Assembly (NCBI GenBank): GCA_021413965.1 | Contig: JAIOPI010000033.1 | Coordinates: 62,001-126,000, forward strand | Length of the DNA stretch: 64,000 nt | Direction of reading: 5' to 3' | Source of the DNA: Lentisphaerota bacterium | GTDB lineage: Bacteria > Verrucomicrobiota > Kiritimatiellia > UBA8416 > JAIOPI01 | Shown: positions 39,991-59,273 of the stretch, in pieces | How the letters are laid out: the number at the start of each line of letters is the position of its first letter | Numbering within the stretch: the stretch's first letter is position 1 | Program-made: the position numbers and the translations under genes | Notes under the pieces: generated by a model | Told to the model about the DNA's origin: nothing | Database searches by the model: none | What the model saw: the letters and a program-made list of their open reading frames with translations, nothing else

Positions 39991-41241
39991 TTACCGCAGG
40001 TTAAACAGGAATCCATTCTCTGCACGGGCAGGCCCCGAGCGCGACGCGTCCGCGACATTGCCGTAGGCGCCCAGATCCACACGGCCCCCGTTCGGCTGGG
40101 GCTCGAGGTCAAAGGGGCTCAGGGGATCGCCCGCATCGATGCAGGGACTGTTGGTGGTGTCATACACCCACGTGCCGTTCGACCACCGTCCGGCGTAGGA
40201 CTTCAGATGCAGATCACCGGCATTGGTGTTGCCGAACGCGGGGTCGGCTTCCATCAAGTGCGTAAAGACTTCCTTGTTCACATTATCGCGATAGAACGAA
40301 TAGAACTTCGAGGCGCCAACCGGTGTCCAGTCCGTATAGCTCAGCTGCAAATACAGAGGCACATTCTGATCGGGTTGCTGAAGCGAAATTTCCCAGCCGC
40401 CGTCATTTTCGGCTGGATTCGGGGTGCCTGTGCGGTTGTTCCACAGGATACAGTTCTTGATCACGTACGGCACCACCGTGCCCCGGTAGAGCTTGATTCC
40501 GCCGCTGCGCCGCCCGGCGAAATTGTTGTAGAGCGTGCAGGATTCAATTCGGTACGGGCACTCATACAAGTAGATTCCGCCCGCATCGCTCTTGCCATCG
40601 GCGGCCCCCTCGCAGCGGTTGCCGATGAAGACGCAATTTCGGATCACGCCCGCCGCGGCCACGTTGTAGTACTGCGCATACAGCCCGCCACCCTCCTGGA
40701 TCGCGGAATTGGCGACGACCCGGTTGCGTTCAAAGGTCGCCTGCACGCCCGACAGGAACACGCCGCCACCCGTGGTCGCGGTGTTGCTGACGATGTTGCA
40801 GTTGGCCACCGTCAAACTCCCGCCGCTCATGGCGATGCCGCCGCCCGTCACGGCGCTGCCGCCGGTCACCGTAAACCCGTCAAGCCGGGCGCCATTCGCC
40901 CCACTGACCACCGGCCCCCCTCCTTTGAGAACGGTCGGGTTGGCCATCCAGTTGCGCGCTTCCAACGCACCCATGCCGTTGGTGAATCCCCCGTAGACCG
41001 AAGCATTGACCGGCAACTGGAAGGGGCCCGGCGAGTAGGTCCCCTTGGCCACCCAGACATTGGCGCCACTACCCGCGGCCAAGGCGGCACCCAAACTGGT
41101 GAAGGCATCCGACCAACTCGTGCCGTTGCTGGCGCCCGTCGCCTGTCCATCCACATAGAGTGTCGCCGCCGTGATGATCGAGGTCTGCAGCGCAACCAAG
41201 CCGGCAACCACGCATCCCAACATTCTGTTTCTGCAGGTCAC
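39991..41241 (-). CDS. Secreted beta-helix protein with conserved C-terminal tail
   Basis: A 416-residue exported protein. The signal peptide runs to about residue 25 (SIITA before ATLYVDG). It is followed by the module start YVDGQATGASNGTSWSDAF and a WVAKGTYSPG segment. A right-handed beta-helix of polymorphic-outer-membrane-protein type follows, with NCNIVSN, FERNRVVANS and NCVFIGNRCEG turns. The module end reads SPCIDAGDPLSPFD, then VDLGAYGN. The extreme C-terminus GFLFNLR matches the tails of the two giant adhesin-like proteins downstream. The GTG start at 41241 has GGGAGGGG upstream; ATG 41223 is an alternative. It lies between two paralogous glycosidase-like genes, suggesting a surface partner in glycan capture. 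Confidence 0.8.
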   Translation of the reverse strand: MTCRNRMLGCVVAGLVALQTSIITAATLYVDGQATGASNGTSWSDAFTSLGAALAAGSGANVWVAKGTYSPGPFQLPVNASVYGGFTNGMGALEARNWMANPTVLKGGGPVVSGANGARLDGFTVTGGSAVTGGGIAMSGGSLTVANCNIVSNTATTGGGVFLSGVQATFERNRVVANSAIQEGGGLYAQYYNVAAAGVIRNCVFIGNRCEGAADGKSDAGGIYLYECPYRIESCTLYNNFAGRRSGGIKLYRGTVVPYVIKNCILWNNRTGTPNPAENDGGWEISLQQPDQNVPLYLQLSYTDWTPVGASKFYSFYRDNVNKEVFTHLMEADPAFGNTNAGDLHLKSYAGRWSNGTWVYDTTNSPCIDAGDPLSPFDLEPQPNGGRVDLGAYGNVADASRSGPARAENGFLFNLR

Positions 41242-41269
41242 GGAACCCCTCCCGATACCTCATCGCCCG

Positions 41270-43372
41270 TCAAGCGTCACCAGGGCAAGAGGAAGTGGTT
41301 ACCACCTCGATCACGCCGCATTCCCATTTCCTCAGCTTCGTCTCCAGCCGCAGCGTGCTGCCGCGCCGCGTGACGCGCAAGGCCTTTCGCGAGCCATCCT
41401 CACGGTGCAGGATCGCCAGTCGCGGCTTGGCCGCCCCGTGCGGCGCGAGGTCCAGCTTCACGCTGACCGATCCCCCGCCGCGCGATTCGCGCCGCGACGT
41501 TTCACCCAACACGATGCCCATGCGCGAACGCGTGGCATACAGCCCGGACGCAACAGACGCGTCGCTGTCCAGTTCAAGCCCCATGGAATCCAGAAATCGT
41601 CCGGCCACCGTGAAACCCGCCGTGCGCTTGCGCAACGCCGCCAGCCGTCTAACCCGGCGGCCAAAGTCGGGCACATCGCGCAGCGTGCCTTCCAGTCCCT
41701 TGACGATGATGGCCAGCAGGAATCCCCAGGCAAACGCCTTGCCGACTTCATCCTCGTGTTCATAGGCGTCGATCGTCCAAGCCTGCAAGGCATCCGGCAG
41801 CGTGTAGCGGAAAATGTTGCCGTGACCGTCCGACCAGTTCCAGTACCACCCGAGGTTGATGCCGCGCGTGGTGTGGATGTCGAGCGATTCCCCGATCGTG
41901 TAGGCGTCCGGATGTCGGGCGCGCACGAGTTCCGAGGCGCGCGCCGTCCACTCCGCCACGCCGCGGGCGCTGTGTCCGGGCACGCCATGCCCATGATCCG
42001 CCGCGAAGCACAGGTCTTCGCCGAAGGGCTCGTCGAGGAACATCGACGTGAAGCCCAGGTCCTGGGCACGCGCCACGGTATCGATGGCCCATTCCTGAAA
42101 ATCCGGGTGGCATTGGCACAGCCGGCGTCCGGATTCATCGAGGTAGTCGGAGGCCAGTCGCCCGTGCGCGCCGCGAATGGGATAGCTCTCCATCGTCGGC
42201 TGACCGTAGAGCGTGCGCGCCCCCCAGCGCTCCCAGAGTTCGCCCCCCAGGCGGTTCTTCATGGTGACCAGGCGCGTGTTGATGAGGGTGCTGGTGTTGA
42301 CGCCCATCGCGGCCGCTTCGTGCAGCACACGCCGGAGCAAGGCCAACCGCTCCGGGCGATCGGTGAGCGTGGCCTCGCGGCCGGCCCGTGTGTACACGCC
42401 CATCATGGTCATGTCCCAGATGCAGAAATCCTGCAGGCCCAGCGTCTGACCGTGCCGGACAATCGCCGGCAGCTCCGCGTATGAACGCCATTCACGTCCG
42501 CAGAAGTCGCGGAACAGCGCATTGTGAAAGCCGATCGACTGCCGCAGGCGCACGGGCGTGGGTGGCGGGCGCCACCACGCCGCCAGCCAGCGGCTCAACC
42601 GGTCCGCCGTGGCATGCCAGTCACCGGCGTGCGGCGCGATGCCGATCACGTCACTGGTCCAGCGCTGGCCCGGCGCCAGCGCGGCATGGTGCAGCCAGGC
42701 CGCGCCAATGCGCGCATCACCGGGATGCGGATTCAAATCCTCGATGACGGCGTTCTGCAAGCTGGGACCGGCCGGGTACGGCACGACCGAAAAACCGCGA
42801 CCGCCCCCCGACAAGTCAAGAAACGGCACCATCATGTTGATGTGATTGGGCGCCGTCCGGCGGTGCTGTCCGTGAATCGTCCAGCCCCGGCCAAACGCGC
42901 CGCCGCGGTCGTGCATCGCGTGGGGATCGAACTGGCACTGCCCTGCCGTGACCATGTCCCGGCCGGGGCCGGCAGATCCTGGCCAGCCGCCAATCCAGGG
43001 GAAGCGCACTTCATGGATCAGGAAGGGGCCGCCGTTGCGCACCTCGATCGTGAAGCGGGCCTCATCGGCACCTTCGGGGAGGGTCACCGTGACGATCACG
43101 GCGATGCCCGTGGAAACATGCTCGGGAGTCTTGAGATCCGGATACCGGATGGTCAGCCGGCCCCGGGCCAGCAACATGCGCGGCCGGCCGGACTCATGCG
43201 AATCCGCATAGCGGTCGATCCAGCGCTCCTCGTCCGGCGCGCAGACGCGGAAGAGGCGGCCATAGGCGGGGTCGAAACGATGCCGGACACGAGCGCGCCG
43301 ATGCTCCAATCCCACGAGGCTGCCGGTCTTCCGATCAAACTCGAAGGCTACGATGCCGTTCGCCAATCGCAT
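41270..43372 (-). CDS. Large glycosidase-like protein (DUF6259-like), copy 2
   Basis: A 700-residue paralogue of the protein at 37795-39855. It begins MRLANGIVAFEFDRKTGSLV and has the same N-terminal sandwich, ESGRPRM and DWHATADRLSRW landmarks. The barrel strand FTSMFLDEPFGEDLCF near residue 440 and IGESLDIHTTRGINLGWYWN near 490 carry the candidate acidic residues. No signal peptide is seen. ATG 43372 is chosen because it aligns with the start of the paralogue and has AAGG upstream; an ATG at 43411 adds 13 unconvincing residues. It is divergent from the AraC-type regulator at 43460, so that regulator is a good candidate for its control. Confidence 0.65.
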   Translation of the reverse strand: MRLANGIVAFEFDRKTGSLVGLEHRRARVRHRFDPAYGRLFRVCAPDEERWIDRYADSHESGRPRMLLARGRLTIRYPDLKTPEHVSTGIAVIVTVTLPEGADEARFTIEVRNGGPFLIHEVRFPWIGGWPGSAGPGRDMVTAGQCQFDPHAMHDRGGAFGRGWTIHGQHRRTAPNHINMMVPFLDLSGGGRGFSVVPYPAGPSLQNAVIEDLNPHPGDARIGAAWLHHAALAPGQRWTSDVIGIAPHAGDWHATADRLSRWLAAWWRPPPTPVRLRQSIGFHNALFRDFCGREWRSYAELPAIVRHGQTLGLQDFCIWDMTMMGVYTRAGREATLTDRPERLALLRRVLHEAAAMGVNTSTLINTRLVTMKNRLGGELWERWGARTLYGQPTMESYPIRGAHGRLASDYLDESGRRLCQCHPDFQEWAIDTVARAQDLGFTSMFLDEPFGEDLCFAADHGHGVPGHSARGVAEWTARASELVRARHPDAYTIGESLDIHTTRGINLGWYWNWSDGHGNIFRYTLPDALQAWTIDAYEHEDEVGKAFAWGFLLAIIVKGLEGTLRDVPDFGRRVRRLAALRKRTAGFTVAGRFLDSMGLELDSDASVASGLYATRSRMGIVLGETSRRESRGGGSVSVKLDLAPHGAAKPRLAILHREDGSRKALRVTRRGSTLRLETKLRKWECGVIEVVTTSSCPGDA

Positions 43373-43459
43373 GCCATGCCGCCTTTCCCTGGACCCCTGA
43401 GCATAGGCCATTCAGACCCCACGGCCGAGATTGTTGCATTGTAGGATGACCTCCCTCCC

Positions 43460-44383
43460 ATGTATATTTTTGATGTGAGCAACGAAACCAGCATGCCGCC
43501 TCACGCGGTGTTGGGCGCCCCCTACGACCCGGAAGTGCAAGTCTCGGAACAGCGCCTGGCCGTCGCAGGTCGCTATGTACAGGCACAGGTGCAGGCCAAG
43601 CCGGTGTTCAGCCTGCACGCCGGCCTGGAGATCGGCATTGTACTTTCTGGACGCATCCTGCGCTGCTGGGAGGGATGCCGCCGGGTGCTGCAAGCCGGAG
43701 ATGTGTGGTTCACCGGCGTCTTCGAACCGCATGGCAGCGCCGTGGTCGCGGCGCCCTGCACGCAGATGAACCTCGCGATCTGGCCGGACTGGCTGGCCAA
43801 CCTGCGCATGCCGGAAATGCCGGAGGTCGACTGGCTGCAGCCCTTTCTGCTTCCCCCCGCCCGACGCCCCCGCGTGCCCCCCGCCAGCCGCCCCCGCATC
43901 CTGGCGCTGGCGCACCGGATTCCCGATGTCTGGAAAGGGGGATCGCCTGAACATCGCGCACTGGTGCGGCTGCGGATCATGGAACTCCTGCTGATGATGC
44001 GACGACTTTGCCCGCCGCCCGCGCAGGCCGCCGTGGCGCCCCCGCGCAAGATTGGCCTCCATGCCCGCCTGACCCCGGCGCTACAGCTTGGGCTGCAGCA
44101 GCGGGAACGCCTGAGCGCCGCCCGTGCCGCGCAAGCCTGCGACATGCACACCGCCGCCTTCCAGCGCAGCTTCCGGCGCGCCATGGGCATCTCGTTCACC
44201 CAATTCGCGCTGCGCCACCGCATCAGCGGCGCGGCCGCCGACCTGGCCGGCAGCAACGCCCCGCTCAAGGCCATCGCCGCCAACTGGGGGTTCACGGATA
44301 CCAGCCACCTGTTCCGCGTGTTCGTCGAACACTACCACTGCAGCCCATCCGATTACCGCCGGCGCACCGGAACCCGGTCGTGA
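43460..44383 (+). CDS. AraC-family transcriptional regulator
   Basis: A 307-residue regulator. A cupin-like N-terminal ligand domain (about 20-115, with EIGIVLSGRI and LQAGDVWFTGVFEPHGSA) is joined by a Pro/Arg-rich linker to a C-terminal double helix-turn-helix (about 205-300). In the latter, AARAAQACDMHTAAFQRSF and IAANWGFTDTSHLFRVF are the two recognition units. The N-terminal type usually binds a sugar. There is no good ribosome site before ATG 43460; GTG 43475 and ATG 43493 are later in-frame options. The 87-base divergent gap to the glycosidase-like gene probably holds both promoters. The regulator may control the catabolic genes on either side. Confidence 0.92.
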   Translation: MYIFDVSNETSMPPHAVLGAPYDPEVQVSEQRLAVAGRYVQAQVQAKPVFSLHAGLEIGIVLSGRILRCWEGCRRVLQAGDVWFTGVFEPHGSAVVAAPCTQMNLAIWPDWLANLRMPEMPEVDWLQPFLLPPARRPRVPPASRPRILALAHRIPDVWKGGSPEHRALVRLRIMELLLMMRRLCPPPAQAAVAPPRKIGLHARLTPALQLGLQQRERLSAARAAQACDMHTAAFQRSFRRAMGISFTQFALRHRISGAAADLAGSNAPLKAIAANWGFTDTSHLFRVFVEHYHCSPSDYRRRTGTRS

Positions 44384-44467
44384 ATCAGCCGATCTGGCGC
44401 CATTCCTGCTTTGCACCGCCTCGGCGCCGTACCAGGCTGGCGGCAACGACGGCCTTCAGGAGTCTCC

Positions 44468-44887
44468 ATGATGACGAACCTCGAACGCTTGCAGGCAACC
44501 ATCGAGCGCAATGGCTGCAACGACATCTTCGAGATTGCCGTGCGCTATCCGCACAAGCTGTACGTCGGCAATGTCTGCTGCGAAACCACCCTGCCCTTCG
44601 GCTCGGTGGAGGATGTCGAGGACGAGGTCCTGGAACTGCTCGAGCGCATCCCGGGCAACGGGGGCGCCATCTGCATCGGTTCATCGAGCGAGATTCACGA
44701 CAAGATTCCCGTCGCCAACGCCGAAACCCTGTACCACACGGTGCATGAATACGGGTCCCTGCCCATCGACCTCGACCGCGTCCGCCGGAGGCGAACGGAG
44801 TTGCGCCCCAGGCTCCAGGTGCGGCGAACACAGCCGGGAGACGCGCCACCGCGTGGCGAATCCCGCCCCCCTACCCCCGCGTCTTGA
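44468..44887 (+). CDS. Free-standing URO-D-like C-terminal domain
   Basis: A 139-residue protein with CAGGAG five bases before ATG 44468. Residues 1-95 align with only the C-terminal quarter of URO-D-superfamily proteins: CCETTLPFGSVEDVEDEV and GGAICIGSSSEIHDKIPVAN correspond to TQTTLPFGSVAEVRAEV and GGYILCGSQ in protein C. The late zinc-ligand cysteine is kept, but the barrel carrying HxCG is absent. The last 35 residues are Arg/Pro-rich and read into the opposite gene. It is either a decayed remnant or a captured domain. The good ribosome site and intact frame favour expression. It overlaps the end of the convergent ceramidase-like gene by 17 bases. Confidence 0.6.
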   Translation: MMTNLERLQATIERNGCNDIFEIAVRYPHKLYVGNVCCETTLPFGSVEDVEDEVLELLERIPGNGGAICIGSSSEIHDKIPVANAETLYHTVHEYGSLPIDLDRVRRRRTELRPRLQVRRTQPGDAPPRGESRPPTPAS

Positions 44888-46262
44888 ATAACTCCCGCAG
44901 CAACGCCAGCGAGGTGTCGCCCATGCGCTTGAGCGCCGAGGGGTGCAGCTTGGAACCCGCCCCCGTGTGCGTCTCGTAGCCCCCGCGCCGGAATGCGGCC
45001 GGCGTCGGGATGTAGCCGACGTAGCTGTTGGACATGTGCGCCATGAACGTGTACGGCGCCGGCGACAACTCCTTGATGCGCAGTTGCTCCTCGACGAACG
45101 GTTCACCCGGCACGGCCACAATCCCGACCTGACCCAGCCGGAAGACCTGGACCGGATAATCGAAGCGCGGCTGCCGCTTCACGTTGTACGCCAAATCCAC
45201 CCGCATCGCCGCGTAGACCCAATCCCAGCTCACGGCCGTCTTCGCGGCGTCCGTCCATGTCGGCTGCGGATGTCGCTTCAACAGCGCCCGGGCCGCCTTG
45301 ACTTCCTCCGCGCTGGGCGAGCGCATGGGAATACGCAAGTGGCGCGTGGTGACCCCCAGCACCGGCTCGTCAATGGGCGTGAGGCGCGCCAGCGCGGTGG
45401 CCGTGGTCTCCGTCAGCTTGCGGCCCATGGCGTGAAAATCATCCTTCCACTGCGGATCCAGGTGATTGCCGTGATGAATGTTGCCGCAAAACCCGTTCAA
45501 CACCAGCGCCACGCCCTCGCCCCCACCGAGTTCCACCACGCCCCTGGCCCAGGTGCCCGGCCAGTCGGCGGAAATCCAGCGCTTCGGGTAGCCATGGGTT
45601 GGATGACACGTGTGATGGAGCGCGTAGGCGATCGGCTTGCCATGCGCGCCCGTGAAGCGCATCACGCCGACCTCGGGGTCGGCCGGCCCTTCGCTGCACA
45701 GGATGTCGGGAGAACAGCTCGGCGGATGCGTTTGCCCCGTGCCGTCGCGCATGATGAACCGGCGGTTGAACGCCACGCTCCCGTTCACGCCCCGCCCGAC
45801 CTCGGCCTGTGCCGGTTGAAGATGCTTCAGTGCCAGCCCGATCGCCTCCACCGCCCCGTTGATGCACACCGGCGTGTAGCGATCATCCCCGCCGAGCAAC
45901 CACGGCTGCTCCTTGGGAAACAGACCCAGGACATCGCCATCGAAGACAAAGAAGTGACCGACCGAAGGCGCCGAATGCGTCTGCGTGGCATGCACCAGGA
46001 TGTGGTCCTCGTCCAACCCGAACCGGGCGGCGGCCTCCTGGCGAATGGCGTCTGACTCGCGCCGGCCAATGGCCAGCACATCAAGCGCCAGCCAGCAGAC
46101 ACGCCGCTTGCCGTGCTCGATGACGAGCGCCTTGGCGAACAGCGGATCGCGAATCTCCTCCACCGGCCGGTAGCGTCCAATGTCGCCGGCAATCTGCGTG
46201 CCCATCGCTGGCGTGATATCCACTTGCGCGGCCCCGGCCCGAAGAACGGTTTTGTGTTTCAT
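44871..46262 (-). CDS. Neutral/alkaline ceramidase-like N-terminal domain protein
   Basis: A 463-residue protein resembling the N-terminal domain of neutral/alkaline ceramidases. It begins with a VDITP motif (AAQVDITPAMGTQIAGDI) and carries the zinc-region motif HATQTHSAP near residue 93. HHTCHPTHGYP (near 210) and the loop GFCGNIHHGNH near 257 follow. In true ceramidases the loop supplies a nucleophilic serine in a GDVSPN-like motif; here cysteine and histidines stand there instead, so ceramide cleavage is doubtful. There is no signal peptide. Family members are common in catabolic clusters of PVC bacteria with unknown role. ATG 46262 has a weak ribosome site; the upstream open frame crosses a REP-like repeat. 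Confidence 0.75.
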   Translation of the reverse strand: MKHKTVLRAGAAQVDITPAMGTQIAGDIGRYRPVEEIRDPLFAKALVIEHGKRRVCWLALDVLAIGRRESDAIRQEAAARFGLDEDHILVHATQTHSAPSVGHFFVFDGDVLGLFPKEQPWLLGGDDRYTPVCINGAVEAIGLALKHLQPAQAEVGRGVNGSVAFNRRFIMRDGTGQTHPPSCSPDILCSEGPADPEVGVMRFTGAHGKPIAYALHHTCHPTHGYPKRWISADWPGTWARGVVELGGGEGVALVLNGFCGNIHHGNHLDPQWKDDFHAMGRKLTETTATALARLTPIDEPVLGVTTRHLRIPMRSPSAEEVKAARALLKRHPQPTWTDAAKTAVSWDWVYAAMRVDLAYNVKRQPRFDYPVQVFRLGQVGIVAVPGEPFVEEQLRIKELSPAPYTFMAHMSNSYVGYIPTPAAFRRGGYETHTGAGSKLHPSALKRMGDTSLALLRELFKTRG

Positions 46263-46286
46263 AAGTTCATCTCGCCCTGCATGCAC

Positions 46287-46339: not shown

Positions 46340-46354
46340 GCGCCTTCCGGTTCC

Positions 46355-47479: not shown

Positions 47480-47515
47480 GCTGCATGCCTCGACTGAGAT
47501 CGGTTTGGCTCAAGC

Positions 47516-47616: not shown

Positions 47617-47639
47617 AGCATCAGCCATCCCATTCATAC

Positions 47640-48467: not shown

Positions 48468-51400
48468 TCATTTCACGAGGAACAGGATGCCGGACGTCGC
48501 GCCGGCCCCCTCACTGCCGGCGGCCTCGACCGTGCCGCCGTAGGCGCCCATGTCGATGCGACACGGATCCCCCTGCGGCTCCTCCTCGCACGAATCAGCC
48601 GGATCCCCGGCGTCGACACAAGGGCTGGTCTCCGTGTCGCGCACGATGCCCGACGGCGTCCAGCGTCCGGACTTGGACTTGAGGTGGAAATCGTTGGCAC
48701 CCGGGCTGGCGAAGAGCGGGTCCTCCGCGCGCTGTCCGCCATTGTCGGTGATATCCCCGCTGCACAGCGCATTATTATAATCACTGTACGACACGTAGAC
48801 GATGGCATTGGCGCTGTCGCCGCGCGACCGGATGTTCTGGACGCCGCTCGGGGAATTGTCCTGGAGTGGATTCTGGGCATCGTTGCCCCAGACGATGGCG
48901 TTGCGCAACGTGAGGACCGAGATGGCGCTGGCGCGGGCGTACACGCCGTCACCCTCATCCTGCGCGACGTTGGCGGTCACCGTGCAGTTGATCATGACCA
49001 CCGATGCATAGGGTGGCGTGAAGCCGTCGATTCCAAATCCGGCGGCGCGGAACTCGCAACGATTGCCATAGAACAGGCAGTTTCGCACCGTGCCCGTGGC
49101 CCCCAGGTCGCACCACATGCCTGCGCCCAGTCCAGACGCCGCCATGTAGTTATCCGTGATGATGCACCGACTCACGAGGAACGGGCTGGCCATGCCCACA
49201 AACAGTCCGCCCCCCCGGCCCCCCTGCCCCTGCCCACCGCTTATCGTGAACCCGTCCAGGACCGCCCCATTGGCGCCACTGCAGGACACCACCATGGACG
49301 CGTTATCGCTCCGGCCACCAAAATTTGGCGTGTCATCGCCGTTCAGGTCGCCGCTGAGCACGGTCTCATGCCGGCTGGGATCGCGCTGCGCCAGGGCCGA
49401 CATGCCGCTGACAAACCCCCCGTGCAGCCGGGTGCCCGCGCGGAACGCGAAGCGATTCGTCGTGGACGCGCCGGCCGGCGCCGGCCGGTACACGCCCGTC
49501 GCCACCCACACCGCATTCGTGCCCGCCACGTCCAGCGCCGCCTGCACCCCCGTAAACGCATCGTCCCAGTTCAGGCCCGTCTGGCGGCCCGCGGCGGAGA
49601 GGTCAACCAACTGGATCCCCAGGTTGGCCTCGTCGTCGAAGATGGTGCCCGTCCCGGCTTCCTGCAGCAGGACCGCATTCACGGCATTCGTGAGCGACAC
49701 GGTGAAGGTCTCGGGCGTCTCCACTTTCTGATCGCCGAACACGCGCACGACGATCTGCGTCGCCAGGCTGCCGGCCGGAATCACCACGGTGCCATTGGTC
49801 GGCGCATAATCAACAAACGCCGCCCACGCGCTGCCGTCCACCGTCTGCCAGTCGGCGCGAACGTCCGCAGCAGCCGGTGACATCAGGCTGACGGTGAAGA
49901 CCATGCTGGTCTGCCCCGCGTCCCCCTCCCGCACGCTGGCATCGCCGATCGATAGCAACGGTTCGGCACCCAGCGTCAGGCGGACCCACCCATTGGCGAC
50001 GCTGAAGCTGTAGAACCCGGCCGGCGGAGGATTGAGCAGCGTCAGCCCGCTCACGCCCGCACCTCCAATCGCGCCGGCGTACCGGATCAGATCGTAGGTC
50101 CCGTTGACGGCCCAGTCATGGGTGGTGCCCGCTGCGCGAATCAGAACGCCCGCCCCGTCGATCGTCAGCCCGTTGGTTTCGGACACGAGCAGTTGATCGT
50201 TGGCCGGCGCATCGCTGAACTCGAACGCAAGCACGCTGCCGGGCCGCATCGCAACGCTGGCCGCGCTCAGAGTCCCGAGGCCGGCCGCGCCGGGCGCCAG
50301 CGTGCCGCCCGCGAGATTGGTCACGGCGCCGGCGATAACGCCCGCGCCGCCGAGCGTGCCGCCCCCGGCCACCGTGACCGTCGATCGGGCCGCCAGCGAG
50401 CCGTTGACCAGCAAGGTTCCGGCGGCCACCAGCGTCGCCCCCGTGTACGTGTTGGCCGCACCCAGCACCACCGTTCCCGCCGTACTCTTCGTCAGCGCGG
50501 CCGCCCCGCCCAGGCGCGCGCTGACCGTGCCGTCCTCCACCTGGTACACGCGACCGGTAAGCACGCCCGAACTGCCCGCGATGATTCCGCTCCGCAGTTG
50601 GATGGTGCCCACGCTTTCATTGAAGGACTGAATGTCGAACGTCCCGCCGTCCACCACCACGGCGGCACCATTCGCGATCCGCTCGCTCGCACCGATCTGC
50701 AGCGTGCCGCCTTGCACGGTGTTGGTACCCACCGCGGCCGCGGTCTGGGCGCCGGTCAGCAGCAGCGTGCCCGCACGAACCCAGGTGGGGCCCGAATAGC
50801 TGTTGGCGCCGCCGAGCGTCACGCTGTCCGGCCCCTCCTTGATGAGCGTGCCACCGCCCGTGATGCCGCTGCCATAGACGTACGCTCCGGCGCGATCAAA
50901 CACCAACGTGCCGTTGAGGGTTGTGATCCCTGAGCCGAGCGTGCCGGACGGCCCGCCATTGCCGATGCGCAGCGTGCCCGCGCTGATGGCCGTCGTCGTG
51001 TAGGTGTTATTGGTGACCAGCGTCGCCACGCCCGCGCCGTCCTTCGTTAGCGTGCTCCCGGTCTGCACGGCGTCAGCCACCACCACATCTCCCGCGCCGC
51101 CGAGCGTCAACGCGAAGGCGCCTCGCACGGGAGCGCCGAGCGTCAACATGTCCTGGTCCGCGTTGATGCGACTGGCGGCCACCAGCGTCACGGCGCCACT
51201 GAAGCGGTTGGTGCCGGACACGCTTCGCAACGCGCCGCCGCTGGCAACCCCGGCCCCGGCCAGGGTCAACGGTTCGGCCGCCGTTACGATCCCGCCCTCC
51301 AACTCCAGTGCCGCCAGATTGGCGACCGTGGTGCCCGCATTCGTGCTGCCGAGCCCCGTGGCGCTTTGCATATTCATCACGCCCGCTGCGACTGCCGTCA

Positions 51401-52406
51401 GGCCGCTGTAGGTGCTGTCACCGCTCAACACCACCTTGCCCGCTCCGCTCTTGGTCACCGTTCCGACCCCGCGGATGGCGCCGGCATGCGTGAGCAGCCC
51501 CGTGCGATTAAAGACCAGCGCCGCCTGGTTGATGGTCTCGCCCGCCCCCAGACTGCCCGTGGCACCGGCACTGCCGACCTGCAAGGTTCCAGCCTCGATG
51601 GTCGTGCGTCCCGCGTAGGCATTGCTCGCAGTCAAGATGACGGTGTTCGGTCCCGTCTTCGTCAGGTTCCCGGGGCCGGCGACAGGCGCGGCTAGCGTCA
51701 GCGTGGTGGTCCCGATCAGCGTGGCCGTGGCATTGCTGGCCACCGTGATGGTGCGCGGCCCGGTCAGGGTGAAGGCCACGCTGTTGCTCAGCGCGCCGTT
51801 GCCCGTGAACGTCACGCCGCTCGCCGCCCCGCCCAGACTGGCGTCCGCGTCGATCGCCAACGTGCCGCCCGCAATCGTGACGCCACTGGTGAACGTGTTC
51901 GCACCGGTCAGGACGAGCAGCCCCTCTTGCACGGTCAGCCCCCCCCGTGCGCTGACCACGCCGCTCAGGGCTTGCGCGCCCGCCCCGATCTTGCGCAAGC
52001 CCAGCACGCCCCCGCCGTCGCGCAGCACGCCCGTGAACGTCGCCGAGGCATCGTGCGCCCCCACTGTCAGCAGCGCCGTCCCGGCGGAGTTGGTGACATA
52101 GCCGGCGGCCGTGCTCGACAGCCCGTTCAAGGTTTGATCGTGACCGCCCAGATCCAAACCCGCTGTGGTGGCCCCTATGCTGAGGAGGTCTTTCCCGGCC
52201 CCGTAGGGCAGCGCGTCCGCGACACCCAGCTGCAGCCGGCCCGCATTCACGGCCGTGGTCCCGTCGTAGGTATTCGTGCCGCTCAGGACCAGGGTCCCCG
52301 CACCGGACATCGTGACATCGCCCCCGCCGCCGACGGTGCCGGCCACCGTGAACACCACACCGGCGGGAGGCGAGACGGTGAGCATCGCCCCGGCGTCGAT
52401 CGACAC
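48468..52406 (-). CDS. Autotransporter-repeat/Calx-beta/beta-helix adhesin, 3' part after amber codon
   Basis: A 1312-codon frame that continues in the same frame directly after a TAG at 52407-52409, so it is the main part of one 1519-codon gene starting at 53027. Numbered from 53027, many autotransporter-associated beta-strand repeats (GAGTLVLSGTNTYDGTT-like units) run from about 25 to 1010. They are followed by a Calx-beta domain (about 1026-1135, VREGDAGQTSMVFTVSL) and a beta-helix module (about 1142-1519, GLNWDDAF to SPCVDAGDPADSC). The C-terminus is GILFLVK. No outer-membrane autotransporter barrel is present. After the stop, translation could restart only at the GTG of VSIDAG, without a ribosome site or signal peptide. 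So this part is either read through or not made. Confidence 0.7.
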   Translation of the reverse strand: MSIDAGAMLTVSPPAGVVFTVAGTVGGGGDVTMSGAGTLVLSGTNTYDGTTAVNAGRLQLGVADALPYGAGKDLLSIGATTAGLDLGGHDQTLNGLSSTAAGYVTNSAGTALLTVGAHDASATFTGVLRDGGGVLGLRKIGAGAQALSGVVSARGGLTVQEGLLVLTGANTFTSGVTIAGGTLAIDADASLGGAASGVTFTGNGALSNSVAFTLTGPRTITVASNATATLIGTTTLTLAAPVAGPGNLTKTGPNTVILTASNAYAGRTTIEAGTLQVGSAGATGSLGAGETINQAALVFNRTGLLTHAGAIRGVGTVTKSGAGKVVLSGDSTYSGLTAVAAGVMNMQSATGLGSTNAGTTVANLAALELEGGIVTAAEPLTLAGAGVASGGALRSVSGTNRFSGAVTLVAASRINADQDMLTLGAPVRGAFALTLGGAGDVVVADAVQTGSTLTKDGAGVATLVTNNTYTTTAISAGTLRIGNGGPSGTLGSGITTLNGTLVFDRAGAYVYGSGITGGGTLIKEGPDSVTLGGANSYSGPTWVRAGTLLLTGAQTAAAVGTNTVQGGTLQIGASERIANGAAVVVDGGTFDIQSFNESVGTIQLRSGIIAGSSGVLTGRVYQVEDGTVSARLGGAAALTKSTAGTVVLGAANTYTGATLVAAGTLLVNGSLAARSTVTVAGGGTLGGAGVIAGAVTNLAGGTLAPGAAGLGTLSAASVAMRPGSVLAFEFSDAPANDQLLVSETNGLTIDGAGVLIRAAGTTHDWAVNGTYDLIRYAGAIGGAGVSGLTLLNPPPAGFYSFSVANGWVRLTLGAEPLLSIGDASVREGDAGQTSMVFTVSLMSPAAADVRADWQTVDGSAWAAFVDYAPTNGTVVIPAGSLATQIVVRVFGDQKVETPETFTVSLTNAVNAVLLQEAGTGTIFDDEANLGIQLVDLSAAGRQTGLNWDDAFTGVQAALDVAGTNAVWVATGVYRPAPAGASTTNRFAFRAGTRLHGGFVSGMSALAQRDPSRHETVLSGDLNGDDTPNFGGRSDNASMVVSCSGANGAVLDGFTISGGQGQGGRGGGLFVGMASPFLVSRCIITDNYMAASGLGAGMWCDLGATGTVRNCLFYGNRCEFRAAGFGIDGFTPPYASVVMINCTVTANVAQDEGDGVYARASAISVLTLRNAIVWGNDAQNPLQDNSPSGVQNIRSRGDSANAIVYVSYSDYNNALCSGDITDNGGQRAEDPLFASPGANDFHLKSKSGRWTPSGIVRDTETSPCVDAGDPADSCEEEPQGDPCRIDMGAYGGTVEAAGSEGAGATSGILFLVK

Positions 52407-53027
52407 CTAGCGGTCAGCACCCAGCGTCGCCGTGGCGGTTGGATTCAGCGTGCTGCTGGCCGTCACCGCCACGTGCCCGGTTGCGCCGCCAAGCCCCGCC
52501 GCGTTGGCGCTCAACGTCCCCCCGTTGAGCGTCAGCAGTCCTCCGTAGCCCGCCGCGTTACCGTTGAGCCACACCGTCCCCCCGCCGCTCTTCGTGACCG
52601 CGGCCGTCCCCGACAGCGTCCCGCCGATCCGCAACGAAAGCCCCGTCGCCACATTCCAGACCTGATCGGCTCCGACCACCAGGCCGGCATTGTTGGTGAA
52701 GCTGCGGGTCGCCGCGGACAGGTCGATGCCGCCCGCCCCAAGCGTGATGGCGTGATTGGTGGACGGTATCGTGAAATTGTGCGGGGGATCCGCAATCTGG
52801 ATGCCCAGCCAGGTGACTGGACTCGCCAGGGGCGATCCCTGCACCGTCGCCAGGCTATCCCAGCGCGCGATGTCGTTACTTCCCGGCGACACGCCTCCGA
52901 GCCAACTCGCGCCCGAGTCCAAGGCCTGGTTGTTGTTGGCCTTGGCGATCGTGTCGGCACGCAGTCCCGCCGGACCGCCCGCTAAAGTCCCCGCCACCAC
53001 CACAAGCATCAATCGATGACAACCCAT
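52407..53027 (-). CDS. Autotransporter-repeat adhesin, 5' part ending at an in-frame amber codon
   Basis: A 206-residue frame with a signal peptide (MLVVVAGTLAGGPAGLRA, cleaved before DTIAK). It is followed by a WLGGVSPGSNDIARWDS entry strand and the first autotransporter-associated repeats (TKSGGGTVWLNGN, LTLNGGTLSANAAG). It ends ATATLGADR and then TAG, immediately followed in the same frame by VSIDAGAMLTVSPP and hundreds of further repeats. A single C-to-T change would turn CAG (Gln) into this TAG. AGGAG lies ten bases before ATG 53027. The likeliest reading is a nonsense mutation or sequence error in one giant surface-protein gene. Confidence 0.75.
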   Translation of the reverse strand: MGCHRLMLVVVAGTLAGGPAGLRADTIAKANNNQALDSGASWLGGVSPGSNDIARWDSLATVQGSPLASPVTWLGIQIADPPHNFTIPSTNHAITLGAGGIDLSAATRSFTNNAGLVVGADQVWNVATGLSLRIGGTLSGTAAVTKSGGGTVWLNGNAAGYGGLLTLNGGTLSANAAGLGGATGHVAVTASSTLNPTATATLGADR

Positions 53028-53132
53028 TGAGCCGCGCTCCTTCGGGTGCTCATGCCACGCCTTCCAGCTGCACGCGATTGTCCGCCGCCAGACCGTGTTA
53101 AAACCATCGCGCCGGCGCGTACGCCCACGCCG

Positions 53133-56100
53133 TTACTTCACGATGATGAAGAGGCCACTCGGCGGCAGGGGGCCCCGGCCGCCCGCCTGGACCGTGCCGC
53201 CGTAGGCGCCCATGTCGACCGGGCACGGATCGCCCAGCAGGTCGCCGCACGGATCGGCCGGATCGCCGGCGTCGATGCAGGGGCTGGTCACCTCATCGAT
53301 CACGATCCCGGCCGGCGTCCAACGCCCGCTGGCAGACTTGAGGTGGAAGTCTCCTCCCGCGCTGTTCGCAAACAGCGGATCGGCCGAAAGAATTCCCGCC
53401 AACTGGGTCAAGACGCCGCCGCCGCGCTCGTACAGCCACGGCGTGCCCTGATCGACATCGCTGTAGCTCAGCGTCATGCGCCCGCCGTTCTGCACGCAGA
53501 TCTCAGACCCGCCGCCATCGTTCGCCTGCAAGGTATGGTTGTCCCACAGGATGCAGTTGCGCAGGATCACGGGCGCCTGCGCGCTCGCGTCGTAAACCTG
53601 GATCCCGCCGCCCTGGCGCTTCGCGGTGTTGCCGGTAATGGTGCAGTTGAGAACCTGCGTTCCCGGCGCGCCCGAGATCTGCAGGCCGGCCCCGTCGTAG
53701 TTCACCGTCGTGTTGCCCGCAAACACGCAGTTGCGGATGGTGGGCGCGGGAAGTCCCGTCACGTTCAACCCGCCGCCGCCTGCCGCGACGCCGCCGTTGT
53801 TGATGAAGTGGCAGTGTTCAACAACCGACGCCGAGTTGCCAAGATGCAGCCCCGCCCCGGCACCCGAGGCAGAATTGCCGCGGAATTCGCAATTCGCGAT
53901 CACCATGGCGCCGCCGACCACCTGCATGCCGCCCCCGTAATCGCTGCTGCCGCCGGTGATCGTGAAGCCATCGATCCTCGCCTCGGCTGCACCCGTCACC
54001 ACGCGCCCGCCGCCCGAGAGCGTGGTCTTGTATGTCACCCAGTCGCGCTCGGCCAGCTGGCTCATGCCCGCCGTGAACCCCCCGTAGAGGGAAACCCCGT
54101 TGCTGAACACGACCGGCCCGGGGTACGTCGCCCAGGCCACCCAGATCTCGTCGCCGCTGTGCGCGTGCGCCATGGCCGACGCCACGTTCGCGTACGCATC
54201 CGCCCAGCTGGACCCGTTGTTCGCCCCGGACGCGAGTTCGTCAACGTACTTGCGATTGTCATCGAGTATCGTGTAGGTGTGCCGGCTTGTCCCGCCGAGG
54301 CTGGCGCCCACCGGCGCGTACAGATCCACGCTGACCGTTTCCGCATCCTCCGCCAGCGCGTCGTCGAACACCTTGAGCGCGATCTGCCGCGTGGTTTCGC
54401 CCACGGCAAAGGTGAGCGTGCCCGGCGTCAGCCCGTAATCGACGGCCGGCGTTGCCGTCCCGCCCGTGGCTGAAAACTGCACGCTGACCGGCGCGGCGGA
54501 CAGGCGATTGAGGACCACCGCCACCATCACCGGCGTGACGTTTTCCATCCCACTCGACGACGCCTGCTGGAAGGACACGGTGACCGGCGCGTCGTCGTCC
54601 AGAATCGTGATCGTGTGCGTGGCGATCGGGCCGAGGGTGACGTTGGTCGGATTCGACAGCGTCAGCACGATGGTGCGCGGCGCGTTGGGCGCGCCGTTGG
54701 GCAGCACGGTGACGTTGACCACCTGCTGCCCCGTGGCGGCATCGAACGTGAGCACGGCTGGGGTGAAGGTGAAATCCGTTCCCGCCGCGGCGGTCCCGCC
54801 CGTGACCGCGACCTGCACGGTGCCGGTGCCCTCGTACAGCCAGTTGCCGACGGCAACCCCCACCACGGCCGTTCCGGCCGATTCACTGACGTACGAGGCG
54901 GAGGTTTGAAACGCCACGGCATAGACCGGAGCGCCCTCGTACGCGCCCATATCGAACGATCCGCCCACGGGCTGCGGCCGCGCGGCCCCGCGGATATCGT
55001 CCGTCACGCCAAAGTCCACACCGGCATCGAAGACCGGGCTGCCACTGGTTGGCTGATATCCCGCAATCCCATAGGCCGCCCCGTTCGTGGCCACGGCCTG
55101 GGCCGCGCGGTTGGAGACGGCGTTGCCCCACACGTAAACCGTCTGTGCGCTGTTCGACGCAATCACGAACTGCAGATACTGGTTTGTATTGGGATTGAGG
55201 AAGCGCCCCGCCAACAGCCCCGCGGCCCACGCGGCCTGGCTGTCGGTCAGCGCGGTCTGGCCCCGCGCCGCATCGTAGACCGGCGCGCCGGTCCACACCC
55301 CGCCGGGGCCGCCCTCGAATTGCGGGTCCGCGTCGATATTGCCGGTGCCGCTGCGGCCGCCGCGCACGTCGCTGAAGAGCACGGCGGTGCTGCCGGGCGT
55401 GGACTCGGCGATCTCCGCCCCGCCGCCCGCCGCCACGTTGTTCCACAAGATGCTGTTCACGACCTGCACGGCCCCGTTGCCGCAGGCCAACCCGCCACCC
55501 GTGGCGGACGTGCGGTTCGCGGCGATGGTGCAGTGCCGGATGTTGAAGCTCGCGGTCGAATACGCATTCAGCGCGCCGCCGGGCCCTGCCGATTCGTTGC
55601 CGACCAGCAGGCAGTTCTCGAACTCCGGAATGCCCGTGGCCCCCTGGTAGAACATGGCGGAGCCGCCGTACGACGGGTGCCCGCTCTCATTGCCCGCAAA
55701 CCGGCTCCGCCGGAACGTCGTCGAACTGTCCGCGCTGAATGACGCCCCGCCATAGCTGGCGCTGCGATTGCCGCTGATGACACAGTCGTCAAAGGCGAAA
55801 CTGTCGACGTTGACGAAGGCCCCGCCGGTGCCCGTGGCGGCATTGTCGGCAAACACGCAGTGGCGGTTGGTCACGAGGCACGTGAGCCGGCTCTGGGTCC
55901 AGTACACGCCGCCCCCGCTCGACCCCGCGGTATTTCCCACAAAGGTGCAGCGCTCGACCAGCCCGCTGACACTGGCTCCATAGGCCACGCCGCCCCCGGC
56001 GCTCGCGCGGTTACCCGCAAAGACGGAGTCCCGAATCGCCACCAGGCCGCTGGCCCAATGGAGCGCGCCGCCGTAGCTGGCCGAGTTGTTGCGAAAGATG

Positions 56101-59100
56101 CAGTTGCTGATCGTCACCTGGCTGCCGACCCCAAGTTCGGTCAGGGCCCCGCCGTAATTCACCGCCGTGTTGTTGTCGAAGGTGCAGTTGCGGATGACGG
56201 CGGCCACGCCATCCACGACCATGCCGCCGCCATTGCCCGCCGAAGCCCCGTTGGTGATGACAAACCCGTCCAGCGCGGCGTTGTTGGTGGCGGAGATGAC
56301 CCGCCGCACCCCCTGGCCGTCCAGCAGGGAGGGGTGGGCGTTCCAGTCCCGCGCGGCCGGCGTCCCCTCCCACCCGCCGAAGCCGCCGTAGAGATTCACG
56401 CCGGGCTTCATCGGGTAGGTCGCCCCACCCGCGTAGGTGCCCTGCGCCACCCAGATCTCGTCGCCGCTCACGGCCTGGGCCAGCGCCTGCGCCAGATCGA
56501 CGCGCGCATTGAACCAGTCCAGCCCCGTGTTGGCCCCGGTCGCGTTGTCGTTCACGTAAATCACCTGCCCGGCCTGGCCATGGTAGAAAGAGGCCGTGAC
56601 CCCCTTTGGCGCATTCATCAACACCGATGTTGTCGTGTTGGTGCCGGTTGCCGCGCCCGTCCAGCGCCCGAACGGCACGTCCGTGGCCGGCACGGCCGTC
56701 AGCGCCGCCATCGTCCCGGCATCCAGGTAGGTCCCCGAGGACGGCAGCACCGACCCGAATCCCGCATCCGGCCACACCGTCCACGTCAACGCGTACTGCG
56801 TCTTGAATTGCGCCACCAGATTGGTGCCGGCCGTGCCCGTCGTGAAGAGCCGCTGCGTGGCGGTGCTGCCGTCCTCCCACCGGATGAACACGTACCGCAC
56901 GCTGCCGACATCCTGCGTGGGCGCCACGGACACGCTGTGCACGTCGCCCGGCTGCCAGCTGAACATGTTGGTGGTCCAGGTCGTGCCATCGACATCGATG
57001 TCACGTCCCGCCGGGGTGCTGTACACGCGCACGACGGTCCCGGTGGGGGCAAACTGCGCGATGCCGTGGTGAGCCTGGTTCATGGTCACGCCGGCCTGGG
57101 GGTTGGTGCCCGTCACCGTGCCCGCCCAATTCGTGAACACCCAGCCGCTAGCCGCCACCGCCTCGGCCCCAACGGCCGCGCTCAGCTCATACCAGACGCC
57201 GCCCGGGGGCATGACCGTCCCCGCCGACGCCACGGGTTCGACGGCCGTGGTCCACAACATCTGCGTCGAAAAGGCCGCCGTGAGCGTCGTGCCGTTGATC
57301 AACCCCGTCACGCTGTGGACCTGCGCCCCGCCATCGGACCAGGCGCTGAAGAGGAACTGTGTGCCGGCGCCGCCCGCGAGCGGACTGGACACCGCGATGG
57401 TGTGCACGCTGTTCGTCTTCCACACCAGCGCGCGCGGCGCGGCGGAGGTCGTGGCATCGGCCTGCACGGCCAGGCCGGCCGGACTGGTCTGCAGCGTGTA
57501 CGTCACGGTGGGCACGGTCACCTCGTACGCGCCCATCTCGAAGCCCTCGTTGAGCGGCCGCACGGTGTCCGTCAGGTCATTCGTCACGCCGACATTCACC
57601 CCCGCATCGATGACGGGGCTCAGGATCTGCGGGCGGTAGTTCTGGATCTGAAACGCGTCACCCGCCTGGGCGATGGACGCGCCGACACGATTGGTCAGCG
57701 CATGCCCCCAGACATACAGCGTGTCCGTGCTGTTGGACGCAATCGCGAACTGCAGGTCCTGCGAGAGGTCCGGATTGACCGTCAGCCCGCGATACGCATT
57801 GACAGCCCAGCCGGCGCCGCTCGCCGTCAGCATCGTCTGCGCGGTGCCCGGCAGAAAAGGCCCGACCAAGGTCCATGTGCCCGCCGGTCCGCCGCTGAAC
57901 AGCGGGTCGGCGTCGAGATTCTGGATGCCCGGGCCGCTCCACCCGCCCTGGACATCGGAGTAGCTCAGGCCGACGGTCCCGGCCTGGTTGGCATAGACTT
58001 GTGCGCCACCGCCGCTCGCCATGTTGGTCCAGACCACGCAGTTGGTGATGCCGAAGAATGCCGTGCCCCCGATGTGGTAAATCGCGCCGCCCTGGGTGCC
58101 CGAGCGGTTGCCCGCCAGGGTGCTGTGGCGCAGGGTGAAGCGCGCATTCGAATAGAAATACAGGGCGCCGCCCGGCCCGGCCGTGACGTTGCCGGCGAAC
58201 AGGCAGTTCTCGTAGGACGGAAACACGGTCGTGCCCTGGTAGTACGTGGCCCCGCCGCCGTTCAAGGCCTCGTTGCCGGCGAACACGCAGCGCCGGATCA
58301 CGGTCTCATTGTCCGCGCCAAAGATCGCGCCCGCCCAGGACGCCGTGCGATTGCCGCTGAACACGCAATCCTCCAGCGTGTACGCATCGGCCCCGACGAA
58401 GGCGCCGCCCCAGCCGTTGGCGCCGCTTGCCACGTTGTGGACGAAGACGCAGCGCTGGAACAGGGCCAGGCAATTGGCCCGCGATCCGCTGTAGACCGCG
58501 CCACCCCCGCTGGCCGCCGCCGAATTGCCCAGAAAGACCGAATCGGCAATCGTGCCGGTCAGGGCCAGGGGGTACAGGGCGCCGCCCCCGCTGGTCGCGC
58601 TGTTGCCAATGAACCGGCAGACGCTTACGGTCGTGCTGCCGGCGGCCCAGTACACCGCCCCGCCGAACGCGGCGCTGTTGTCTCGAAAGACGCAATTGCT
58701 GATCGCGATCTCGCTGCCCGCGCCGGTCTGGGCCAGGGCGCCGCCGTAGCCCGTGCCGCCGCTGGCCTGGTTGTTCACAAACAGGCAGTTGCGCACGCTC
58801 ATCCCCGGGCCGCTCGACAGCAGCCCGCCGCCCGCCTGCCCCGCGGCCAGCCCGTTCGTCACCACGAAACCGTCCAGCACGGCGTTGGTGGTGCCGAGCA
58901 GGACGCGCCGGATGCCGAGCCCGGTCAGCAGCGTGGGGTTGGCATTCCAGTCGCGCGCGGCGAGGGACGTCATGGTATTGGCGAAGCCGCCGTAAACCAC
59001 CACGCCCGGCTTGAGCTGCAGCGTGACGGCGCCGGCATACGTGCCACGCGCCACCCATAATTCGTCGCCGCTCGACGCCGCCGTGAGCGCCGTCGCCATG

Positions 59101-59273
59101 GCGCTGTAGGCGTTCGCCCAACTGCTGCCGTTGGCGGCGCCGCCAGCCACCGCGGCATCGACATAGCGCACGCCGGCATGCCCCGCCCGCACCAGCCCGA
59201 ACAGCACGCTCCCCACCAGCACCAGCACCCGCATGCCAACGCCACCCGCCCGCATCTGTCCACTAGCTGCCAT
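53133..59273 (-). CDS. Giant secreted beta-helix protein with three homologous modules and Calx-beta domains
   Basis: A 2046-residue exported protein. ATG 59273 has GGAGG seven bases upstream; the hydrophobic signal segment MRVLVLVGSVLFGLVRAGHA follows. Module 1 (about 38-585, RYVDAAVAGG to MGAYE) is a beta-helix with repeated NCVFRDNSA- and GNSATSGGGA-type turns. Then come InlB-type bacterial repeats (about 588-900, FLFSAWSDGGAQ and RWEDGST). Module 2 (about 905-1450) repeats the same beta-helix plan. Two Calx-beta domains (about 1455-1560 and 1562-1670) follow. Module 3 (about 1675-2046, KYVDELASGANNGSSWADAY to SPCIDAGDPADPC) ends in GLFIIVK. There is no LPXTG, PEP-CTERM or autotransporter barrel. 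It is probably a surface adhesin or polysaccharide-binding protein. Confidence 0.85.
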   Translation of the reverse strand: MAASGQMRAGGVGMRVLVLVGSVLFGLVRAGHAGVRYVDAAVAGGAANGSSWANAYSAMATALTAASSGDELWVARGTYAGAVTLQLKPGVVVYGGFANTMTSLAARDWNANPTLLTGLGIRRVLLGTTNAVLDGFVVTNGLAAGQAGGGLLSSGPGMSVRNCLFVNNQASGGTGYGGALAQTGAGSEIAISNCVFRDNSAAFGGAVYWAAGSTTVSVCRFIGNSATSGGGALYPLALTGTIADSVFLGNSAAASGGGAVYSGSRANCLALFQRCVFVHNVASGANGWGGAFVGADAYTLEDCVFSGNRTASWAGAIFGADNETVIRRCVFAGNEALNGGGATYYQGTTVFPSYENCLFAGNVTAGPGGALYFYSNARFTLRHSTLAGNRSGTQGGAIYHIGGTAFFGITNCVVWTNMASGGGAQVYANQAGTVGLSYSDVQGGWSGPGIQNLDADPLFSGGPAGTWTLVGPFLPGTAQTMLTASGAGWAVNAYRGLTVNPDLSQDLQFAIASNSTDTLYVWGHALTNRVGASIAQAGDAFQIQNYRPQILSPVIDAGVNVGVTNDLTDTVRPLNEGFEMGAYEVTVPTVTYTLQTSPAGLAVQADATTSAAPRALVWKTNSVHTIAVSSPLAGGAGTQFLFSAWSDGGAQVHSVTGLINGTTLTAAFSTQMLWTTAVEPVASAGTVMPPGGVWYELSAAVGAEAVAASGWVFTNWAGTVTGTNPQAGVTMNQAHHGIAQFAPTGTVVRVYSTPAGRDIDVDGTTWTTNMFSWQPGDVHSVSVAPTQDVGSVRYVFIRWEDGSTATQRLFTTGTAGTNLVAQFKTQYALTWTVWPDAGFGSVLPSSGTYLDAGTMAALTAVPATDVPFGRWTGAATGTNTTTSVLMNAPKGVTASFYHGQAGQVIYVNDNATGANTGLDWFNARVDLAQALAQAVSGDEIWVAQGTYAGGATYPMKPGVNLYGGFGGWEGTPAARDWNAHPSLLDGQGVRRVISATNNAALDGFVITNGASAGNGGGMVVDGVAAVIRNCTFDNNTAVNYGGALTELGVGSQVTISNCIFRNNSASYGGALHWASGLVAIRDSVFAGNRASAGGGVAYGASVSGLVERCTFVGNTAGSSGGGVYWTQSRLTCLVTNRHCVFADNAATGTGGAFVNVDSFAFDDCVISGNRSASYGGASFSADSSTTFRRSRFAGNESGHPSYGGSAMFYQGATGIPEFENCLLVGNESAGPGGALNAYSTASFNIRHCTIAANRTSATGGGLACGNGAVQVVNSILWNNVAAGGGAEIAESTPGSTAVLFSDVRGGRSGTGNIDADPQFEGGPGGVWTGAPVYDAARGQTALTDSQAAWAAGLLAGRFLNPNTNQYLQFVIASNSAQTVYVWGNAVSNRAAQAVATNGAAYGIAGYQPTSGSPVFDAGVDFGVTDDIRGAARPQPVGGSFDMGAYEGAPVYAVAFQTSASYVSESAGTAVVGVAVGNWLYEGTGTVQVAVTGGTAAAGTDFTFTPAVLTFDAATGQQVVNVTVLPNGAPNAPRTIVLTLSNPTNVTLGPIATHTITILDDDAPVTVSFQQASSSGMENVTPVMVAVVLNRLSAAPVSVQFSATGGTATPAVDYGLTPGTLTFAVGETTRQIALKVFDDALAEDAETVSVDLYAPVGASLGGTSRHTYTILDDNRKYVDELASGANNGSSWADAYANVASAMAHAHSGDEIWVAWATYPGPVVFSNGVSLYGGFTAGMSQLAERDWVTYKTTLSGGGRVVTGAAEARIDGFTITGGSSDYGGGMQVVGGAMVIANCEFRGNSASGAGAGLHLGNSASVVEHCHFINNGGVAAGGGGLNVTGLPAPTIRNCVFAGNTTVNYDGAGLQISGAPGTQVLNCTITGNTAKRQGGGIQVYDASAQAPVILRNCILWDNHTLQANDGGGSEICVQNGGRMTLSYSDVDQGTPWLYERGGGVLTQLAGILSADPLFANSAGGDFHLKSASGRWTPAGIVIDEVTSPCIDAGDPADPCGDLLGDPCPVDMGAYGGTVQAGGRGPLPPSGLFIIVK

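Follow-up and report, generated by a model that had tools for sequence, protein, structure and literature searches.

The 64,000-nucleotide stretch considered here (the window), from contig JAIOPI010000033.1 of a Lentisphaerota bacterium, encodes three proteins, A, B and C, which share a beta-helix module near the C-terminus, followed by a linker and a short hydrophobic peptide that we call the tail. The sequence-only reading of this DNA had described their common ending as SPC[IV]DAGDP, a GAYG segment, a linker and a hydrophobic tail closing in Lys or Arg, and this arrangement was borne out at the following positions.

39991-41241, minus strand: protein A, 416 residues, with a signal-peptide-like start, a single beta-helix module, a linker and the tail
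40123-40149, minus strand: SPCIDAGDP of protein A, residue 365
39994-40014, minus strand: tail GFLFNLR of protein A
52407-53027, minus strand: open reading frame (ORF) of 206 residues upstream of B in the same frame, with a signal-peptide-like start, ending in TAG at 52407-52409
48468-52406, minus strand: protein B, an ORF of 1312 residues, with PATR beta-strand repeats, Calx-beta, a beta-helix module, a linker and the tail
48600-48626, minus strand: SPCVDAGDP of protein B, residue 1261
48471-48491, minus strand: tail GILFLVK of protein B
53133-59279, minus strand: protein C, 2048 residues, with a signal-peptide-like start, three modules ending in GAY[EG], Flg_new_2 and Calx-beta, and the tail
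57522-57539, minus strand: EMGAYE, internal module 1 of protein C, no tail after it
54936-54953, minus strand: DMGAYE, internal module 2 of protein C, no tail after it
53259-53285, minus strand: SPCIDAGDP of the terminal module of protein C, residue 1999
53136-53156, minus strand: tail GLFIIVK of protein C

The GAYG segments are DLGAYG at residue 389 of A and DMGAYG at residues 1285 of B and 2022 of C, after which 22, 22 and 21 residues remain, made up of linkers of 15, 15 and 14 residues and the 7-residue tail. The three modules are right-handed beta-helices; A's shares 41% identity with C's and B's shares 45%, and Gly is the sole invariant residue in the last seven columns of the alignment. 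Protein A matches Pfam Beta_helix and Disaggr_assoc, both over cut-off; it is flanked by two proteins of about 700 residues, alike by eye (37795-39855 and 41270-43411, minus strand), which may work together with it. The ORF of protein B has no signal peptide of its own, and the 206-residue ORF lies directly upstream. The in-frame TAG that divides the two, with a GTG directly after it, could reflect a nonsense mutation, a recoded stop or a mistake in the assembly. A 1066-residue ORF antisense to protein C (55860-59060, plus strand) is probably a high-G+C artefact.

The module and the tail

The module is already known as the choice-of-anchor Q domain of NCBIfam (choice_anch_Q, NF041518), with which it shares the SPC..DAGDP..GAY arrangement. 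Protein C scores 57.6 bits against a cut-off of 25, its best stretch being an internal copy (residues 1409-1448), protein A reaches 16 bits, under that cut-off, and protein B gives no match. The model differs from the endings described here in that it stops near GAY[EG], so that A's tail falls outside the matched stretch, and in other phyla the module is followed by other C-terminal regions (by eye). Among eight tail proteins read in the window's own genome, seven contain internal GAYE copies of the module, 13 in all (including residue 581 of C, with SVGAYD at 576 of C37:133860 left uncounted), and none of the 13 has a tail after it. In C37:8774, C37:155332 and C37:161987 the module is not the last domain, and the tail is still C-terminal, past another region.

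In AlphaFold models, the mean confidence (pLDDT) is 90.2 for the C-terminal module of C and 86.5 for the whole of A. Along A it is 91-95 over residues 331-400, then 61 (401-410) and 49 (411-416); in the module of C it is 66-73 over residues 331-360 and drops under 50 at 360-373. The models assign strands neither to the tail nor to the SPC..GAYG end. Few sequences fill the tail columns of the input, and the low confidence there is therefore support, short of proof. A fold search with the module of C found beta-helix enzymes and rhombotarget A, but only as weak matches (TM-scores of about 0.5 or less), and nothing on the tail. The tail also follows other folds. Ten tail proteins, three of them from relatives and seven from the window's genome, were scanned with Pfam. 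Fn3_assoc, CBM35, LamG and PKD were clearly matched, and their models run to completion, or nearly so, with 10-15 residues left to the C-terminus; in the six remaining proteins, matches near the end were weak or absent.

Association of the tail with exported proteins

ORFs were called with a simple codon model in 1,991,251 bases of the window's genome (37% of it), and signal peptides by a home-made heuristic. The tail motif was written after the first 0.79 Mb had been read, in contigs chosen because searches had found matches there. The motif is strict and excludes some tails, A's own failing on its Asn, and the 23 own-genome tails used for a profile were selected by eye as well as by motif. 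Of the 247 soluble proteins with a predicted signal peptide, 18 end in the motif, compared with 4 of 664 soluble ORFs lacking one and, among membrane ORFs, 4 of 212 (Fisher P = 9e-8); without the filter for solubility, the figures are 20/385 and 7/752. In the stretches that were unread when the motif was written, it ends 5/152 ORFs with and 2/410 without a signal peptide (P = 0.018). Inside the predicted exported proteins it occurs at 326 of 145,289 positions, or 0.22%, against 7.3% at the C-terminus, and among those of at least 1000 residues it closes 12 of 39. Two of the 18 matches (C20:19948 and C37:181772) are possibly due to chance (by eye), and two of the four soluble ORFs without a signal peptide are protein B and C30:207625, a beta-helix protein of 1858 residues whose signal peptide may have been overlooked by the heuristic.

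Another recurrent C-terminus, [FW]YR followed by a short strand-like end and unlike the tail, was seen on a giant exported protein of the window (18985-25224, plus strand) and elsewhere in the genome (C37:154-6027, C37:127600-133704, C33:105558-111953 and C7:135525-141962).

Occurrence across the class and the phylum

A first pattern, T-[IVM]-[IF]-x-F-K-stop, matched in 17 of 193 genomes of the window's class, some matches being true ends of long ORFs (LPGTIFSFK and LPGTVFSFK in G074) and some short chance frames. A refined pattern, G-T-x-x-x-[IF]-[RKQHNS]-stop, was compared with its reverse as a control: it gave 229 matches against 44 in 131 genomes of the class, and 123 against 108 in 256 genomes of other classes of the phylum. 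At least four matches were found in 18 class genomes, a count that the control never reached, while two genomes of other classes (G237 and G449) had four. Within this sample of the phylum, the tail is restricted to the class. Forty ORFs of at least 100 residues end in the pattern, 39 outside the window's genome and one inside; with repeats removed, the remaining 38 contain no internal strict match in 24,269 positions. The tail profile reads G-T-[VLIM]-[FILV]-x-[FI]-[RKQHN], of which G, T and [FI] were set by the search pattern. The codons of the tail vary (by eye), and selection therefore acts on the protein.

In 340 kb, with 185 ORFs, of a hold-out genome (G020) chosen because it is rich in tails, the strict GT tail was found on 4 of 37 soluble proteins with a predicted signal peptide and on none of 125 other ORFs (P = 0.002), and a looser motif on 4/37 and 2/125 (P = 0.02). 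These last two are C4:33053, which ends in GTVIMLR, has a hydrophobic start and may carry a signal peptide overlooked by the heuristic, and C10:23533, apparently a spurious frame.

A scan of named genomes yielded 464 relatives of the module, the best 80 of which, mostly from Planctomycetota, Bacteroidota and others, were searched for D-[ILMVF]-G-A-[YF]. The 38 ends so obtained, eight of them running off the locus, are by eye often dockerin-like, in some cases like those of the type IX secretion system (T9SS), and in two cases IPTL-CTERM-like. In Kiritimatiellae STD1_141, the module end reads NLGAYG...GTLLILR, and that genome has 19 pattern matches against 1 for the control; a module protein of the class member G028 ends in GSVLLFR. 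Nineteen other named module-bearing genomes gave 13 matches against 10 in all, the highest being 3 against 0. The class in which the tail occurs is therefore probably Kiritimatiellae.

Relation to PEP-CTERM and exosortase

Tail-rich and tail-poor genomes were grouped by tail counts only, to which G074, G468 and the window's own genome were added; the latter has 2 refined-pattern matches and G032 has 3, G080 (5 against 3 in the control) is in neither group, and zero-count genomes were only partly used. The 21 tail-rich genomes have a median of 2 PEP-CTERM matches each, the 27 tail-poor ones a median of 16 (P = 2e-7), and the contrast persists on family means (11 against 13 families, P = 2e-4). 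The tail and PEP-CTERM are thus inversely related, with exceptions among the tail-poor (G019 with none, G088 with 3, G134 with 4) and the tail-rich (G379 with 10, G171 with 8). G049, G108 and G111, which were excluded from this count, are included in those of exosortase and of GspD given below.

Exosortase (PF09721) was found in 48 of 50 genomes, comprising all 30 tail-poor and 18 of 20 tail-rich ones. It does not accompany the tail everywhere: G021 (15 tail matches, 93% complete) and G074 (5 matches, 85% complete) have neither an exosortase nor a PEP-CTERM match, and exosortase was accordingly rejected as a necessary partner. Exosortase-domain matches also lie inside frames of about 1345-1415 residues in six tail-rich genomes and in the tail-poor G019; the match at G000:C14:112042-112782 has similar counterparts in G027, G019, G028, G093, G044 and G032, and the protein would be an unusually large exosortase-like one.

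In tail-poor genomes, the long open frames with a PEP-CTERM match are mostly beta-strand-repeat proteins with a VPEP...RRR end (by eye). When the C-terminal regions of eight tail proteins were compared with 12 PEP-CTERM proteins, BLAST matches at E<=1e-3 were obtained for five of them and for the other three there was none. The longest match (C33:146062 with L320) covers 219 columns at 29% identity and ends 13 residues before the end of the tail protein. This comparison is of moderate weight, since the sequences are repetitive and the database consisted of those 12 proteins alone, chosen for a match within a long open frame.

Known sorting signals

The claim of the sequence-only reading that A, B and C carry no known sorting signal holds for the Pfam and NCBIfam scans made. 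TIGR02595 (PEP-CTERM) matches none of the three, and no classical autotransporter barrel is among their Pfam matches (E up to 1). In nine other tail-bearing sequences the tail is unmatched by any NCBIfam model; a PEP-CTERM end used as a control was recognised. The maximal mean hydropathy of 17-residue windows over the last 30 residues is -0.18 for A, 1.11 for B and 0.60 for C, below the threshold of 1.6, so that a hydrophobic helix with a basic cluster is absent by this measure. Inspection by eye of the genes around some of the tail proteins revealed no recurring partner. No description of such a tail was found in the titles and abstract openings of the literature searched, most subscription papers lying outside that search, and a term search of main texts on Pontiella returned none of 'secret', 'C-term', 'sorting', 'autotransporter' or 'exosortase'.

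Discussion

We propose that the tail is probably a C-terminal suffix, transferable among the exported and mostly large proteins of the window's class, which would sort or anchor them and would take the place of PEP-CTERM. This reading is based on the link with export, the suffix-like behaviour of the tail after various folds, its class-wide occurrence and its inverse relation to PEP-CTERM. As with a sorting signal, the carriers have signal peptides by the heuristic, with few exceptions, and they share only the C-terminus. We also infer a strand-docking mode of action and a receptor at the outer membrane. Sec export would come first, and the folded domains would be followed by a flexible linker, often rich in Pro and Gly, leaving exposed a 7-residue peptide composed of Gly/Thr, a hydrophobic strand and usually Lys or Arg. 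This peptide would be bound, as an added beta-strand, by a factor of the envelope that most likely resides in the outer membrane. Such docking could either retain the protein at the surface or pass it across the outer membrane. In tail-rich genomes, the tail would thereby do what PEP-CTERM and exosortase do in related genomes. The suggestion of the sequence-only reading that the tail is an unrecognised secretion or anchoring signal has thus gained comparative support.

Several points weigh against this proposal. No receptor or enzyme for the tail emerged from the searches for exosortase, GspD, SprA and PorV, whose distributions among genomes do not match that of the tail. Signal peptides were called by a home-made heuristic, some tail ORFs have none called (four in the window's genome and two in G020), and the own-genome hold-out gives just P = 0.018. 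The strict motif leaves 229 of 247 exported proteins tail-less, including 27 of the 39 with at least 1000 residues, and some of the forty pattern ORFs look spurious (L162, L169 and L171). Three adjacent paralogous beta-helix proteins (L099, 8907-15418) stop exactly at GAYE[AS]R without any tail, and two T9SS-like ends of another phylum (L224 and L263) would fit the loose motif by eye. Finally, tail-rich and tail-poor lineages differ by descent, and the PEP-CTERM contrast may be partly phylogenetic.

Comparison with known systems helps to situate the tail. The beta-signal recognised by the beta-barrel assembly machinery (BAM) is a short C-terminal strand with alternating hydrophobic residues and a Gly. 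The tail resembles it in being short, C-terminal and strand-like, with hydrophobic residues and Gly, but no barrel domain was found in the scanned carriers, and the tail mostly ends in Lys or Arg, whereas barrel-like ends of the same genome close in Phe or Tyr (by eye). According to excerpts of the respective papers, GlyGly-CTERM with rhombosortase (PMC3237569) and MYXO-CTERM with myxosortase (PMC11980579) are tripartite, with a motif, a helix and a basic cluster; the tail is not, having no helix and a single basic residue. It does, however, display the comparative signature by which GlyGly-CTERM was recognised, namely a signal peptide combined with a suffix, homology confined to the C-terminus, restriction to lineages and an apparent swap of anchors (PMC3237569, in excerpt). 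Like PEP-CTERM, the tail is a suffix found many times per genome, on signal-peptide proteins that are otherwise unrelated, and has a P-x-G-T-L-like start; it differs in its length of about 7 residues with one basic residue, in lacking a transmembrane helix or basic cluster, and in occurring in two genomes without a detected exosortase.

It can be hypothesised, with somewhat less than even confidence, that this one class has an undescribed pathway for envelope sorting, with its own receptor, in which the tail serves as recognition peptide and which would have replaced exosortase and PEP-CTERM as the main means of placing giant adhesin- or lectin-like proteins on the surface. Such a signal would be non-tripartite and helix-free, and possibly derived from a PEP-CTERM that lost its helix.

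Among the alternatives, it is unlikely that the tail is an outer-membrane export signal of type II or another system whose proteins are released and not anchored. Large exported proteins are indeed marked by the tail, and matches to the GspD model were found in 50 of 50 genomes, 37 over the curated cut-off; the tail-poor genomes are among them, however, which makes the type II secretin uninformative as a discriminating partner. No common linear signal is known for type II substrates. It is improbable that the tail has no sorting role and protects the C-terminus from periplasmic tail-specific proteases, or marks it for them: a hydrophobic C-terminus with a basic cap and the failure to find a receptor would be consistent with this, but the inverse relation to PEP-CTERM and the presence of the tail on only part of the exported proteins would be left unexplained.

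Even less probable is that the tail is a degenerate PEP-CTERM, shorn of its transmembrane helix but still an exosortase substrate. The presence of exosortase in 18 of 20 tail-rich genomes, the likeness of P-x-G-T-[LV] to the P-[GAS]-T-L start of PEP-CTERM ends, and the PEP-CTERM carried by related beta-strand-repeat regions in tail-poor genomes would all fit. Against it stand G021 and G074 (the latter 85% complete), with tails and neither exosortase nor PEP-CTERM match, the lack of a hydrophobic helix in A, B and C, and the nine tail-bearing ends unmatched by the NCBIfam PEP models.

A minimal type IX secretion signal is very improbable. The tail shares with type IX C-terminal domains its position, strand-like last residues and exported substrates, and it resembles the last strand of the ends of L224 and L263 (by eye). 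In contrast, the shortest type IX signals reported in the excerpted source are about 40-55 residues (PMC11969387), whereas a folded domain of at least about 40 residues is lacking here, the tail being 7 residues of low model confidence after a linker of 14-15. The SprA_N model matched all 4 Bacteroidota controls and none of the 5 class genomes searched, the window's among them, while the full SprA model was silent in 26 genomes and in the controls alike. The PorV family, for which a shorter genome list was used, exceeded its cut-off in both of the 2 controls and in none of the 35 class genomes, with weak matches below cut-off in 14 class genomes (5 of 17 tail-rich and 9 of 18 tail-poor). Type IX secretion was set aside as not found in the class genomes searched. 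Least probable of all, and very unlikely, is that the tail forms the final strand of the choice_anch_Q module: although it comes shortly after that beta-helix in all three window proteins, speaking against this part of the sequence-only reading are the internal copies without a tail, the unrelated domains that precede the tail elsewhere, the paralogues ending at GAYE[AS]R and the drop in AlphaFold confidence, even if C's SPC..GAYG end itself reaches only 66-73 and is, like the tail, given no strands.

A suffix with a sorting or anchoring role would be of interest beyond these proteins, as earlier C-terminal suffixes led to entire sorting systems, namely those of sortase, exosortase, rhombosortase and type IX secretion. 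The inverse distribution with respect to PEP-CTERM inside one class provides a yes/no vector over genomes for a direct search for the receptor. A new suffix would also allow the surface and secreted proteome to be listed for a little-studied lineage of polysaccharide-degrading bacteria.

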